Origin: Gemmatimonadota bacterium
GTDB taxonomy: Bacteria > Gemmatimonadota > Gemmatimonadetes > Longimicrobiales > Gaopeijiaceae
Direction of reading: 5' to 3'
DNA length: 64,000 nt
NCBI GenBank assembly: GCA_022560615.1
Contig: JADFSR010000001.1
Location: 1-64,000, forward strand
Part shown: one piece after another, positions 22,991 to 27,205 of the stretch
How the letters are laid out: each line of letters starts with the position of its first letter
How positions within the stretch are numbered: position 1 is the stretch's first letter
The notes under the pieces: model-generated
What the model was told of the DNA's origin: nothing
What the model saw: the letters and a program-made list of their open reading frames with translations, nothing else
The model's database searches: none
Translations under genes and position numbers: made by a program

Positions 22991-23880
22991 TGCCGCGCCA
23001 CGCACCGAGCAAGTCTCTTCGCTTCTTCAACAGCCTTCTAATTGCGGTCAGCGTCCTCGCCGCCGCGTGCAGAGGCGAGACCTCTCCCGAGCAGAGCCTT
23101 CCTGAGGGCATCAGCGTCGTCGATGCGTCAGGGTCGAAACGCTTCTTTGCCGCGCCCGCTACCCGCGTGATTTCCTTGGTCCCGTCTGCCACCCAGACGC
23201 TGAGGGCCTTGGGGGTCGACTCACTGCTCGTCGGGCGCACCGATTTCGACGACCAGGAGTGGTTGGCGCACCTCCCATCCGTCGGCGGTGGTCTGAAGCC
23301 CAACCTCGAGGAGATCGTGGCGCTGAGCCCTGACCTGGTCATCCGCTTCCACGGCGAACAAGACTCGCGCACACCGGCACGGCTCGACGAGCTGGGTATC
23401 ATGCACATCGCGGTCCGCCCGGACCGCCTTCAAGACGTGTACGCCGGTGTGATCCTTCTGGGTCGCGCAACCGGAGCCGACGCTGCCGCCGACTCGCTGG
23501 TCCGTGTGCTGGAGGCCGGTCTCGCCGAACTGTCGCAGCGGGTCGCGGAGCTTCCACGGCTACGCACGGTGTACGTGCTCGGCGGCACGCCCCCGTGGGT
23601 CGCGGGTCCGGACACCTACATCGACGAAATCATCCGACTCGTGGGCGGGGACAACGCCTTCGGGGATCTCCAATCGCTGTATTCCGCGGTGAGCCCCGAG
23701 GAGCTACGCGCGAGGGAGATCGATGTTGTCTTCGTGAGCGAGGCGTCCCAGTTCGATGCGACACTCACGCCGCAAGCGCGCATCGTCGAGATCGGTTCCG
23801 CTCTCGAGATTCCAGGTCCCCACGTGCTAGATGCCGCGTGGCGCGTCGCGGAGTTGCTGCACGGCACTTCCTTGCGATGA
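22990..23880 (+). CDS. Periplasmic binding lipoprotein of a cobalamin/Fe-siderophore ABC importer (BtuF/FepB type)
   Basis: 296 residues with a lipoprotein signal (LIAVSVLAAACRGE). Two-lobed class III binding-protein fold: TRVISLVPSATQTLRALGVD opens lobe 1, GGLKPNLEEIVALSPDLVI and DYLVGRTD-like segments follow (LVGRTDFDDQEW), and lobe 2 contains TVYVLGGTPPWVAGPDTYID with IIRLVGGDNAF. SLVPSATQTLRALG matches BtuF best, so vitamin B12 or a corrinoid is the likeliest ligand; haem or a siderophore is the alternative. ATG overlaps the upstream stop and its own stop overlaps the permease start. Confidence 0.85.
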   Translation: MPRHAPSKSLRFFNSLLIAVSVLAAACRGETSPEQSLPEGISVVDASGSKRFFAAPATRVISLVPSATQTLRALGVDSLLVGRTDFDDQEWLAHLPSVGGGLKPNLEEIVALSPDLVIRFHGEQDSRTPARLDELGIMHIAVRPDRLQDVYAGVILLGRATGADAAADSLVRVLEAGLAELSQRVAELPRLRTVYVLGGTPPWVAGPDTYIDEIIRLVGGDNAFGDLQSLYSAVSPEELRAREIDVVFVSEASQFDATLTPQARIVEIGSALEIPGPHVLDAAWRVAELLHGTSLR

Positions 23881-24863
23881 GCCGGATCACGCTGGCGACA
23901 CTCCTCGGAGTGACGCTGCTGACCAGCGTTCTGGCCGGCATCCGCTTCGGTTCGGTGGAGCTGACCACCGCCGAGGTGCTCGCGGCCCTCACCACCGGGG
24001 ACGTGGAGATGCATCGCGACATCGTGCTCCAACTCCGCCTTCCCCGAACACTACTCGGGGTGCTCGTCGGGGGAGGTCTTGCGCTTGCCGGGGCCACCTT
24101 CCAGGCACTGCTGCGCAATCCGTTGGCAGAACCATACATCCTCGGCATCTCCGGCGGTGCGTCGGTCGGTGCCGTTACGGTGCTCGCCTTGGGCTGGGCA
24201 GGACTCGGATCGTGGAGTCTGCCCCTGGCCGCCTTCGCGGGAGCGCTCCTGGCAATCGTGGTGGTATTCCGAGTGGCGACGGCCACCGGCCACGCGATGG
24301 ACGTGCGCGTTTTGCTGCTCGCCGGCGTCGTAGTGGCGGCGTTCTTCTCCGCGTGCATAGCCTTCATACTCTCGGTGTCCTCGGCGCGCACGGTTCAGAG
24401 CGCGGTATTCTGGATGATGGGGAGCCTCGACGCGAGTTGGCAGAGCGTGCTGCTCGCGGCCGTGTACACGGTGCCAGCCGCAGTCGTCCTGATCGGACTC
24501 GCCCGCCCGCTGAATCTCATGGCGATCGGCGAGGAGACCGCCAACTACCTGGGGGCCGACGTCGAAGGGGTGAAACGCACCGCGCTCGTCATCGCCGCCT
24601 TGATCACCGCGGCCGGCGTCGCAGTGGCCGGCGTGATCGGCTTCGTCGGTCTCGTCGTCCCACACACCGTCCGCCTGCTCATCGGGTCGGATCACCGAGC
24701 GCTACTACCGCTCTCTTTCCTGGGTGGCGCCGCGTTTCTCACACTCGCTGACCTGATCGCGCGTTTGGCGCTCGCTCCGAGGGAAATCCCTATCGGTGTG
24801 ATCACCGCCTTCGTGGGTGTCCCGATCTTCCTCGTGCTCCTGCGCCGGAGCGTAGAAGGCTGA
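23877..24863 (+). CDS. FecCD/BtuC-type ABC permease
   Basis: 328 residues from ATG 23877 (ATGA overlap with the binding protein). About ten membrane helices with family blocks LRLPRTLLGVLVGGGLALAG, FQALLRNPLAEPYILGISGG, TANYLGADVEGVKRTA and the cytoplasmic coupling region AGVIGFVGLVVPHTVRLLIG. The stop codon TGA (24861-24863) lies inside the left terminal repeat of the structured element that follows, so the last two or three residues are supplied by the element. The partner ATPase gene comes after the element. Confidence 0.93.
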   Translation: MSRITLATLLGVTLLTSVLAGIRFGSVELTTAEVLAALTTGDVEMHRDIVLQLRLPRTLLGVLVGGGLALAGATFQALLRNPLAEPYILGISGGASVGAVTVLALGWAGLGSWSLPLAAFAGALLAIVVVFRVATATGHAMDVRVLLLAGVVVAAFFSACIAFILSVSSARTVQSAVFWMMGSLDASWQSVLLAAVYTVPAAVVLIGLARPLNLMAIGEETANYLGADVEGVKRTALVIAALITAAGVAVAGVIGFVGLVVPHTVRLLIGSDHRALLPLSFLGGAAFLTLADLIARLALAPREIPIGVITAFVGVPIFLVLLRRSVEG

Positions 24864-25240
24864 TGAAGAAGTACAGTGGGCCGCGCACATGGTGCTTGCG
24901 CGCGTTCAGGCAAGGAACGACGAGGAGTCGTAGCCGAGCGGGCACCGCCGCCGAAGGCGGTGGTCCGACGAGGAGAGACGCAGCATCAGCCGCGCGGGCA
25001 CCGACGCGAAAGCGTTGGTCGCCATGTGCCCAACACCAGGATGAAAGGACACGCATGTCTGTGGGTTGCGGTGGCACGGCCCCATCTCCGTCGTTGGAGC
25101 GTCTCGGAGGAGCTACGGCTACGCCTTCGCCCCTCCGCGACCCGCGCCCTCGGCGCGGGTTCCCCTATGAGGCCGTGGCACCCGGGGACCCGTGCCTATG
25201 CACGGGTGGCGGCCCGCTGTACTTCTTCATCAGCCTTCTA
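24853..25240 (+). mobile_element. Structured repeat element, copy 1 (388 bp, TA-bounded, MITE-like)
   Basis: Begins TAGAAGGCTGATGAAG and ends with the reverse complement; the 32-base ends (24853-24884 and 25209-25240) match at 31 positions. TA at both edges suits a TA target site as used by Tc1/mariner-IS630 transposases. No gene inside. Internal stems: 24885-24892 with 25022-25029; CACCGCC/GGCGGTG (24943-24962); ACGC-GAAA-GCGT (25004-25015, GNRA loop); 25075-25081 with 25171-25177; ACCCGCGCC/GGCGCGGGT (25140-25160); ACCCGTGC/GCACGGGT (25188-25207); and CGTAGCCG (24929) with CGGCTACG (25116). About 155 bp (25059-25213) recurs inverted in copy 2. Confidence 0.85.
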
Positions 25241-25248
25241 GTCGCGAC

Positions 25249-26037
25249 ATGAGATTCGAGGCGAGGAACCTCGTAGTGCGGTATCCCGGCGCACAACGTC
25301 CAGCGCTAGACGGCATCTCGATGACCATTCCGGACGGATGCCTCTACGCCGTGTTGGGGCCCAACGGATCGGGCAAGTCAACGCTCATGCGGTCGATGAT
25401 GGGTGTGCTCAAGCCGACCTCGGGCGGCACCTATATCGATGACCGCGAGGTGGGCACGTGGGACCGTCGTGAGCTGGCACGAGCGGTCGGCGCGGTCGCG
25501 CAGTCGGAAACTCTGTCGTTTCCGCTTACGGTCCGCGAGATGGTCGCCATGGGCCGCTATCCTCATCTTGGGCCTCTCTCCGGTGAAAGTGACGCCGACA
25601 GGGAGGCCGTGGCCGCAGCTCTAGCCGAGTGTGACGTCACTGAGTTCGTGAGCCGAGACGTGACCACGCTCTCAGGGGGAGAGCGCCAGCGCGTGCGGAT
25701 CGCTCGAGCCCTCGCGCAACAGCCGCAGGCGCTCGTGCTCGACGAGCCGACCAAAAGCCTCGACATCCGTCACGAGATGGCGATCCTCGAGTTACTCCGA
25801 CGCTCGGCGGACTCGGGACTCACCGTCGTCGTGGTTACGCACGGCCTCGATCTCGCCGCCCGGTTCGCCGACCGCCTGCTGTTGCTTTCGCAGGGGAGGG
25901 TCGCCGCCGAGGGCACGCCTGCCGAGGTCATGACCGAGCCGACGCTGGCCAGCGTCTATGCGTGGCCGGTATCGGTCACGACGGATCCCGTGTCGGGGAC
26001 TCCGAGAGTCACCCCCCTGCGCCGCGGGCAGGCCTAG
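25249..26037 (+). CDS. ABC importer ATPase, BtuD/FecE type
   Basis: 262 residues. Walker A GPNGSGKSTLM, Q-loop AVAQSETLSF, signature LSGGERQRVRIARALAQ, Walker B ALVLDEPTKSLD, H-loop VVVVTHGLDLA. Energises the BtuC-type permease upstream. ATG 25249 falls 8 bp after the end of element copy 1 with no Shine-Dalgarno; the frame is open 19 codons upstream but those lie in the element. Its TAG stop (26035-26037) is the first three bases of element copy 2, so the gene is exactly bracketed by two inverted copies. Confidence 0.94.
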   Translation: MRFEARNLVVRYPGAQRPALDGISMTIPDGCLYAVLGPNGSGKSTLMRSMMGVLKPTSGGTYIDDREVGTWDRRELARAVGAVAQSETLSFPLTVREMVAMGRYPHLGPLSGESDADREAVAAALAECDVTEFVSRDVTTLSGGERQRVRIARALAQQPQALVLDEPTKSLDIRHEMAILELLRRSADSGLTVVVVTHGLDLAARFADRLLLLSQGRVAAEGTPAEVMTEPTLASVYAWPVSVTTDPVSGTPRVTPLRRGQA

Positions 26038-26273
26038 AAGGGTGATCGGAAAGGGGGGCGGGCCGCCACCCGTGCTGTCGCATGGGTCCCCGAGTGCCAC
26101 GGCCCCAGAGGGCACCCGCGCGCAGCGTGGGTCGCGGAGGGGCGAAGGCGTAGCCGTAGCTCCTCTGAGACGCTCCAACGACGGAGATGGGGCCGTGCCA
26201 CCCCAACCCACAGGGGCGTAAGATCATATCAACCATGATGTTGGGCCCACCCCCCTTTCCGATCACCCTTCTA
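26035..26273 (-). mobile_element. Structured repeat element, copy 2 (239 bp), inverted relative to copy 1
   Basis: Ends are TAGAAGGGTGATCGG and its reverse complement; the 30-base termini (26035-26064, 26244-26273) agree at 29 positions. The core (about 26062-26214), read on the minus strand, follows copy 1 closely, including GCTACGGCTACGCC and the hairpins (one at 26114-26132). The end repeats differ in sequence from copy 1 after the shared TAGAAGG-TGAT start, yet each pairs almost perfectly with its own partner. The left 170-bp part of copy 1 is absent. Confidence 0.85.
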
Positions 26274-26302
26274 GGGACCTCTGCGGAACAGGGCGCACTA
26301 CC

Positions 26303-27205
26303 TCAGCGCGCTTCTTCTGCCTCGGCTCGCGCGGTCAGGTAGCTCCGGTACCGGGAGTCGAAGATCTCACCCGCTTCCAGCGCAGCCCTCACACCGCAGT
26401 CCGGCTCGTGTACGTGGGTGCATCCGCGAAACCGGCACAGCTCGGAGGGATCCGCGAACTCTGGGAAGCAGCCAGCGACCTCCTCCGGCGCAACGCCCCA
26501 CAAAGCGACGTCTCCGAAACCAGGCGTATCCGCCACCAGCCCACCGCAAGCGAGCGGTATGATACGGGAGCTGACCGTCGTGTGCCGCCCGGTCCTGGTC
26601 TTCCGCGAAAGTTCGCCCGTTAGCAGCCCGAGCTCGGGATCGATCGCGTTGAGCAACGACGACTTCCCCACACCAGATGGTCCGATCAGGGTCGATGTGC
26701 CGTCGCACATCCGCCGACGTAGTAGCTCGAGTCCCTCGCCAGTCTCGGCACTGACGGGAAGCACCTCATAGCCTATGGCCCGGTACATCGGCGCGAACAG
26801 CGCTTCGACGTCGGGCGCGCCCAACGCATCGAGCTTGTTGATGACCAGGATCGCTAGCATCCCGCTCGCCTCGCCAAGCATCAGCAAGCGATCGATCAAC
26901 TCGACCGTGGCGTCTGGATTCTTGGCCGCGACGACCATGAATGCCTTGTCCAGATTGGCCGCGAGCAGCTTCGGCGCCCGCCCGCCTCGCCCTCTGCGCA
27001 CGAGCTCCGTCGAACGCTCCTCCACGCTCTCGATCGTCCACGCGTCACCTGACGTACGCACCGTCACTACGTCCCCGATGACGACGCGGCTCCCCGTGCG
27101 CTGTTGCCGCTTGAGCCGCCCGCGCAACGACGCTTCGACGTCTCGGTGGTCCTCCAATCGGATGCGGTACACACCTCCACCAGCCTCGTGTACCCTGCCC
27201 CTCAC
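26303..27205 (-). CDS. rsgA: Ribosome small-subunit-dependent GTPase RsgA
   Basis: Circularly permuted GTPase that helps mature the 30S subunit. OB-fold N-terminus (RGRLKRQQRTGSRVVIGDVV), then G4 NKLD, G1 GPSGVGKSSLLN, switch region RTGRHTT and G3 ADTPGFGD, and a C-terminal zinc site C..C..HxHxxxC built from LCRFRGCTHVHEPDCGV. 300 residues from GTG 27205, which has GGGAG eight bases upstream; TTG 27253 in frame is the longer alternative. Converges on element copy 2. Confidence 0.95.
   Translation of the reverse strand: MRGRVHEAGGGVYRIRLEDHRDVEASLRGRLKRQQRTGSRVVIGDVVTVRTSGDAWTIESVEERSTELVRRGRGGRAPKLLAANLDKAFMVVAAKNPDATVELIDRLLMLGEASGMLAILVINKLDALGAPDVEALFAPMYRAIGYEVLPVSAETGEGLELLRRRMCDGTSTLIGPSGVGKSSLLNAIDPELGLLTGELSRKTRTGRHTTVSSRIIPLACGGLVADTPGFGDVALWGVAPEEVAGCFPEFADPSELCRFRGCTHVHEPDCGVRAALEAGEIFDSRYRSYLTARAEAEEAR

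Follow-up and report, generated by a model that had tools for sequence, protein, structure and literature searches.

In the genome of a Gemmatimonadota bacterium, the gene for a btuD-like importer ATPase lies exactly between two inverted, structured repeats. What are these repeats, and does the gene that they enclose move with them? We examined this locus within a window of 64,000 nucleotides (contig JADFSR010000001.1, positions 1 to 64,000), the whole stretch of DNA analyzed here, and compared it with the rest of the same genome and with the genomes of relatives. The evidence favors, with a probability of roughly 0.8, the interpretation that the repeats belong to a non-autonomous, non-coding MITE-like family that has interchangeable paired ends and a conserved core, and that is most likely moved in trans by IS1182-family transposases. 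Copy number, paired ends, empty sites, a preference for CTAG, the match of the ends to IS1182-family elements and a covarying fold were all observed computationally.

Two copies with unlike ends flank btuD

The preliminary description of this DNA had reported two TA-bounded repeats in opposite orientation, and had placed the permease stop inside the first, the ATPase start 8 bp past it and the ATPase stop (TAG, 26035-26037) at the first bases of the second; all of these positions were confirmed, as were the complementary arms (Table 1). The arms of copy 1 span 32 nt each and are 97% complementary, those of copy 2 are also complementary, and the two copies share two inverted blocks, one of 89 nt at 97% and one of 84 nt at 77% (BLAST aligns about 180 bp at 86%). 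Fold z-scores against shuffled sequences (-9.9 for copy 1 and -8.5 for copy 2), together with 75 and 86 matching pieces, respectively, in the same genome (4.5 Mb in 105 contigs), indicate that the repeats are not a product of chance. An Rfam 15 covariance-model search of positions 24700-26400 gave no relevant match at E<=5. Copy 2 is located between the convergent genes btuD and rsgA. The ends of the two copies diverge past the first ~10 bp, with type A reading TAGAAGGCTG[T/A]TGAAGAAGTACAG and type B TAGAAGGGTGATCGGAAAGGGGGG, and the family is genome-wide rather than a local pair; on these two points the earlier description is corrected.

Table 1. Features of the btu locus and its two repeat copies, in window coordinates.
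Feature	Position	Strand	Remarks
Element copy 1, 388 bp, end type A	24853..25240	+ (core orientation)	near btuC 3' end; congener site empty
Copy 1 left arm	24853..24884	+	TAG + type A end + TGGGCCGC
Copy 1 right arm	25209..25240	-	97% complementary to left arm
btuC TGA stop	24861..24863	+	from copy 1 end; replaces ancestral ATGA overlap stop
Copy 1 core block common to copy 2	25059..25241	+	26034-26213 in copy 2, inverted
Element copy 2, 239 bp, end type B	26035..26273	- (core)	at CTAG of btuD stop codon
btuF-like periplasmic binding protein, PF01497	22990..23880	+	
btuC-like FecCD permease, PF01032	23877..24863	+	
btuD-like ABC ATPase, PF00005	25249..26037	+	TAG stop is first 3 bases of copy 2
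Solo type A end remnant	23017..23040	-	first 19 nt exact; in btuF signal-peptide region; congener without it

The remnant within btuF encodes FFNSLL, and the congener sequence at this place differs and is 9 nt shorter; it is possibly a scar that has turned into coding sequence.

A widespread family with matched ends

At least 46 paired elements were recovered in the genome. They are mostly 210-432 bp long, contain no transposase and differ in length by hairpin-sized insertions and deletions. One end is poor in three of the 46 pairs, which were excluded from the end counts; in the remaining, clear-ended elements, the same end type occurs on both sides without exception (43/43). The ends found in this genome comprise four 24-bp types (A, TAGAAGGCTGTTGAAGAAGTACAG; B, TAGAAGGGTGATCGGAAAGGGGGG; C, TAGCAGCCCGTGGTAGAAGTACAG; D, TAGGGAGCCTCTGCACAAGTAGGG), and most copies share YGGGCCGC directly after the end. 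Substitutions within the ends are mirrored between the arms: 14 are identical in both, none differ and 15 are one-sided, with 0.5 expected for independent arms. Beyond this genome, the family was detected in relatives, for a total of 15 of the 59 genomes searched (the present one included) from 14 genera, and further end types were seen there. An exact scan of genome contigs with core 20-mers yielded one Sphingomonas record only, taken as a chance match.

Solo ends that lack a full element are numerous and are probably deletion scars. Many solo 24-bp ends situated at gene 3' ends (for example L287 1302-1326, equal to G000:C16:21803; L286 948-970; L293; L295) still supply a stop, TAG or TGA. 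A hairpin module of ~27 nt (GGGCACCGCCGCCGAAGGCGGTGGTCC) is optional at several fixed places of the core, in either orientation (L063 10611-10808, equal to C13:40610-40807; L068, L092, L097, L099), a pattern of presence and absence that resembles the optional boxB modules of BOX. The assembly is interrupted by the element, seven contigs (C54, C43, C28, C37, C19, C31 and C83) ending within a copy, and there are probably more copies in the genome than were counted. At G000:C1:298534-298698 (L103) lies a different inverted-repeat element of 165 bp, whose ends (CTAGTGTCCTGTCCCAGAAGTTCGGC) resemble those of IS630 type; it has no evident relation to the MITE-like family.

Near-identical cores were found to carry different end types. 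On a tree built from the cores alone, without their ends, we counted 11 changes of end type in this genome and 21-23 in total, the least possible number being 6; this was a quick tree, which recombination may distort. We infer that end types are swapped through gene conversion among dispersed copies, in which the core is replaced while the recipient keeps both of its ends, which therefore stay alike.

Empty sites and the choice of target

The mobility of the repeats, which the preliminary description had proposed, is borne out by a genome of the same genus (G001, the congener). In its btuF-btuC-btuD operon, the site of copy 1 is an ATGA overlap between btuC and btuD, and at the site of copy 2 the btuD stop reads CCTAG, with an intact CTAG; neither site contains an element. 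We reconstructed 19 empty sites and compared them, as a concatenated query, with the congener: 17/19 loci were matched, and for 16 of the 19, both window sites among them, the match spans the junction, although a few alignments (for example C17 and C18) are poor near the junction. At two congener loci (L217 and L210), only a type B end is present where the present genome has a full element, which suggests either loss or repeated insertion at old scars.

The target consensus is C^TA^G, with C on the left of 29 and G on the right of 32 among 44 insertions. An exact in-frame TAG stop hosts 14/44 insertions, and the element end supplies the stop of a neighboring gene in 23/44, as judged from gene calls around the insertions made by a codon model trained in this analysis. 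Outside the elements, CTAG is uncommon, with 361 sites in 470 kb, of which 16% are TAG stops. Because the element has a G right after the TA, a TAG stop is restored upon insertion. Most boundaries read CTAG, and one congener site reads CTAT, which better fits a duplication of TA.

The CTAG target is common to several unrelated transposase families in this genome. Its IS1634-family elements (L313, equal to G000:C37:5899-6789; L333, on G000:C77) begin and end with CTAG, and its IS630-family element (PF13358; 1151 bp, G000:C19:61155-62305, L109), with ends CTAGTGTAGTGTTGCAGAAGT, also has a CTAG target.

The ends resemble those of IS1182-family elements

A PF01609 search of the genome identified an insertion sequence on contig C88 (L329) with type C-like ends, matching at 16/20 positions at each end. 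Its protein of 472 aa is IS1182-like, with DUF772 and DDE_Tnp_1 domains, and matches NF033551 at E 3e-48, which is below the curated cut-off. When relatives were searched with this protein, IS1182-family elements with matching ends were obtained (paired scores give the matches at one end/the other end, for ends of 20 nt). Type A ends occur on G058 L342 (20/20 positions at one end and 16/20 at the other), on G016 L344 (17/17) and on a further element (15/15). Type C is represented by G090 L337 (15/18; best 18/20) besides the C88 element (16/16), and G030 L345 carries a third type, known from G037 (17/19; best 19/20). Weaker matches to type B were found on G027 L356 (16/14; best 16/20) and G017 L363 (15/16), both of which are above the IS1182 curated cut-off. 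For comparison, among 3987 TAG-anchored 20-mers from the present genome, 0.13% reach at least 15 matches and 0.08% reach 16, this pool having been stripped of matches of at least 17, those being element ends. We therefore place the element ends in the IS1182 family and not in IS630.

The correspondence is confined to the ends. In the present genome, no autonomous insertion sequence with exact type A or B ends was found, the sole close IS1182-like element being the type C-like one at 16/20; in the whole search, none was found for type D, and the best for type B reached only 16/20. Similarity between insertion sequences and element stops after ~20 bp, and the interiors of the former show no evident likeness to the core. 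By sequence comparison, then, the core appears not to be an internal deletion of any insertion sequence seen, and we use the label MITE-like, as the parent may be unsampled. In G004, a stretch of 1.7 kb bounded by type A ends was considered as a candidate, but it contains no transposase and was rejected as a chance pairing of a solo end.

These observations bear on three other accounts of the locus. According to the preliminary description, the two copies could act as a composite transposon that mobilizes btuD as a unit. The exact bracketing of btuD by two inverted copies, on which this idea drew, holds; the single mobile unit does not, since copy 1 ends in type A and copy 2 in type B, paired ends and an empty site can be assigned to each copy separately, and the btuD of the congener occupies the same place in the operon. 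Two independent insertions at gene boundaries are indicated instead, and a composite transposon is very improbable. Still closer to nil is the probability that the repeats are an ordinary conserved intergenic or regulatory element of the btu operon, which the preliminary description had named as the alternative to its own reading: no support for this was found, and it is refuted by the absence of the element from the orthologous junction in the congener and in most relatives (there the two genes overlap or are directly adjacent), and by the at least 46 copies elsewhere in the genome. An IS630/Tc1-mariner MITE, moved at TA sites by an IS630-family transposase with these ends, had also been envisaged and is improbable. 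TA-bounded ends and the preference for CTAG are consistent with IS630, the CTAT target in the congener favors TA duplication, and the genome has one IS630-family gene, in an element with ends TAGTGTAGTGTTGCAGAAGT. However, these ends match type A at only 14/20 positions (by hand count), none of types A-D resembles the ends of IS630 elements in relatives, and the element-rich genomes G001, G014, G027 and G037 have no PF13358 match. With the ends of the element found on IS1182-family elements, at up to 20/20, the IS630 account is largely refuted.

A covarying fold and its orientation

For 33 elements from 12 genera, RNAalifold predicted 85 pairs, which form a long terminal stem and two internal arms. 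In this fold 95.8% of cells are paired and 66/85 pairs have changed on both sides, and 0/500 shuffles reach any of these measures. Slid structures pair at only 35-48%, a comparison in which the fold is favored by having been derived from the same alignment as was tested. Neither the size of the covariation effect nor its presence in internal helices, which do not belong to the transposon ends, is easily explained other than by a conserved fold. In 39/44 copies of the present genome, folding is better on the core-bearing strand; a few fixed wobble positions, for instance a T/C asymmetry at position 25 (37/46), account for part of this. Where the flanking genes are co-directional, the core lies on the mRNA strand in 40/57 cases (p 0.003; 24:7 in the present genome and 16:10 in relatives). 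Elements occur in 25 co-directional, 6 convergent and 4 divergent contexts, against a baseline of 249:45:28, and tight operon junctions are not depleted: the median empty gap is 16 vs 15 nt, and 13/25 lie within 8 nt of the next start.

Could the core be a structured RNA with a function, whether selfish or useful to the host, carried in IS1182-type ends? It would be transcribed with the operon, fold and loop out, and would insulate, process or stabilize the mRNA. This idea is compatible with the interpretation of the repeats as an IS1182-mobilized MITE-like family and adds a role for the core; we regard it as possible, though less likely than not. The covarying core helices, the bias of the core strand toward the mRNA strand, the better folding of that strand and the presence of elements in tight operon junctions at the frequency expected by chance all argue for it. 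On the other side, pairs common to the folds of both strands include about equal numbers of G-U (38) and A-C (33), which does not point to RNA over DNA and keeps the folding asymmetry from being proof of RNA; the orientation bias in relatives is not significant by itself; and the window copies gave no Rfam match. A related and more doubtful notion treats the core as a passenger: a conserved structured RNA, or DNA, that would have repeatedly changed its transposon ends, would survive via whichever IS1182-type transposase the host lineage has, and would reduce the cost of its presence by restoring the stop codon and folding out of the operon transcript.

Discussion

Taken as an IS1182-mobilized MITE-like family, the element is a unit of about 210-430 bp, in which ~24-bp ends of at least four types, always alike at both ends, form the base of one long stem, and in which all end types enclose one conserved multi-hairpin core. 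IS1182-family transposases would act on it in trans, with insertion at C^TA^G-like sites. A TAG stop is a typical surviving target, regenerated by the first base of the element after the TA; with a further stop that the end has in another frame, the upstream protein remains unchanged or loses or gains no more than a few residues. Of the two insertions in the window, one has split the overlapping btuC and btuD and the other lies in the stop codon of btuD, a gene that has not itself moved. Mirrored mutations of the arms may have arisen by fold-back correction or may derive from lost sub-families. Neighboring genes may stay expressed because the fold loops the insert out of the operon transcript.

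Several known systems are comparable. Correia elements (CREE, NEMIS) of Neisseria are likewise non-coding, target TA, form a stem in mRNA, have variable ends and often lie near genes; they measure ~100-157 bp, with inverted ends of 24-26 bp (AACAAAAA or AAATTTAAA) of variable symmetry (PMC2649163, PMC2229807). The present element differs in its length of 210-430 bp, its multi-branched covarying core, its four or more (at least four) paired end types, its IS1182-like ends and its CTAG/TAG-stop preference. RUP and BOX of Streptococcus pneumoniae are MITEs for which movement in trans by insertion sequences with similar ends was proposed, and BOX is modular and structured once transcribed; RUP matches IS630-Spn1 and BOX matches ISSpn2 (PMC3049150). 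The ERIC/RU-1 element of enterobacteria is also TA-flanked, palindromic and co-transcribed in operons, with an orientation that affects mRNA stability, but it is 127 bp long, has short 7-bp ends and is unrelated in sequence (PMC2229807). Within the IS1182 family, ISPse1 has 16-bp inverted repeats and a 4-bp duplication (PMC3281130). Family members resemble the element in their ~20-bp ends and CTAG boundary, their DUF772 and DDE_Tnp_1 transposases being accompanied by matching ends; the element differs in lacking a transposase, and the interiors are not evidently related. A recent review of MITEs provides further comparison (PMC10969869). In the titles and abstracts of a partial collection of literature on IS1182-derived MITEs or covarying MITE cores, the element family is not described.

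In most MITE families the ends are conserved and the inside is filler. We know of no RUP or BOX family of S. pneumoniae that has one core in several end types. What is unusual here is a single covarying core under several end types that are always matched, several of them resembling the ends of different IS1182-family transposons. If confirmed, this would represent a non-coding element that switches transposases and whose fold is under selection. It also raises the testable question of how a 0.4-kb hairpin that splits overlapping operon genes is tolerated.
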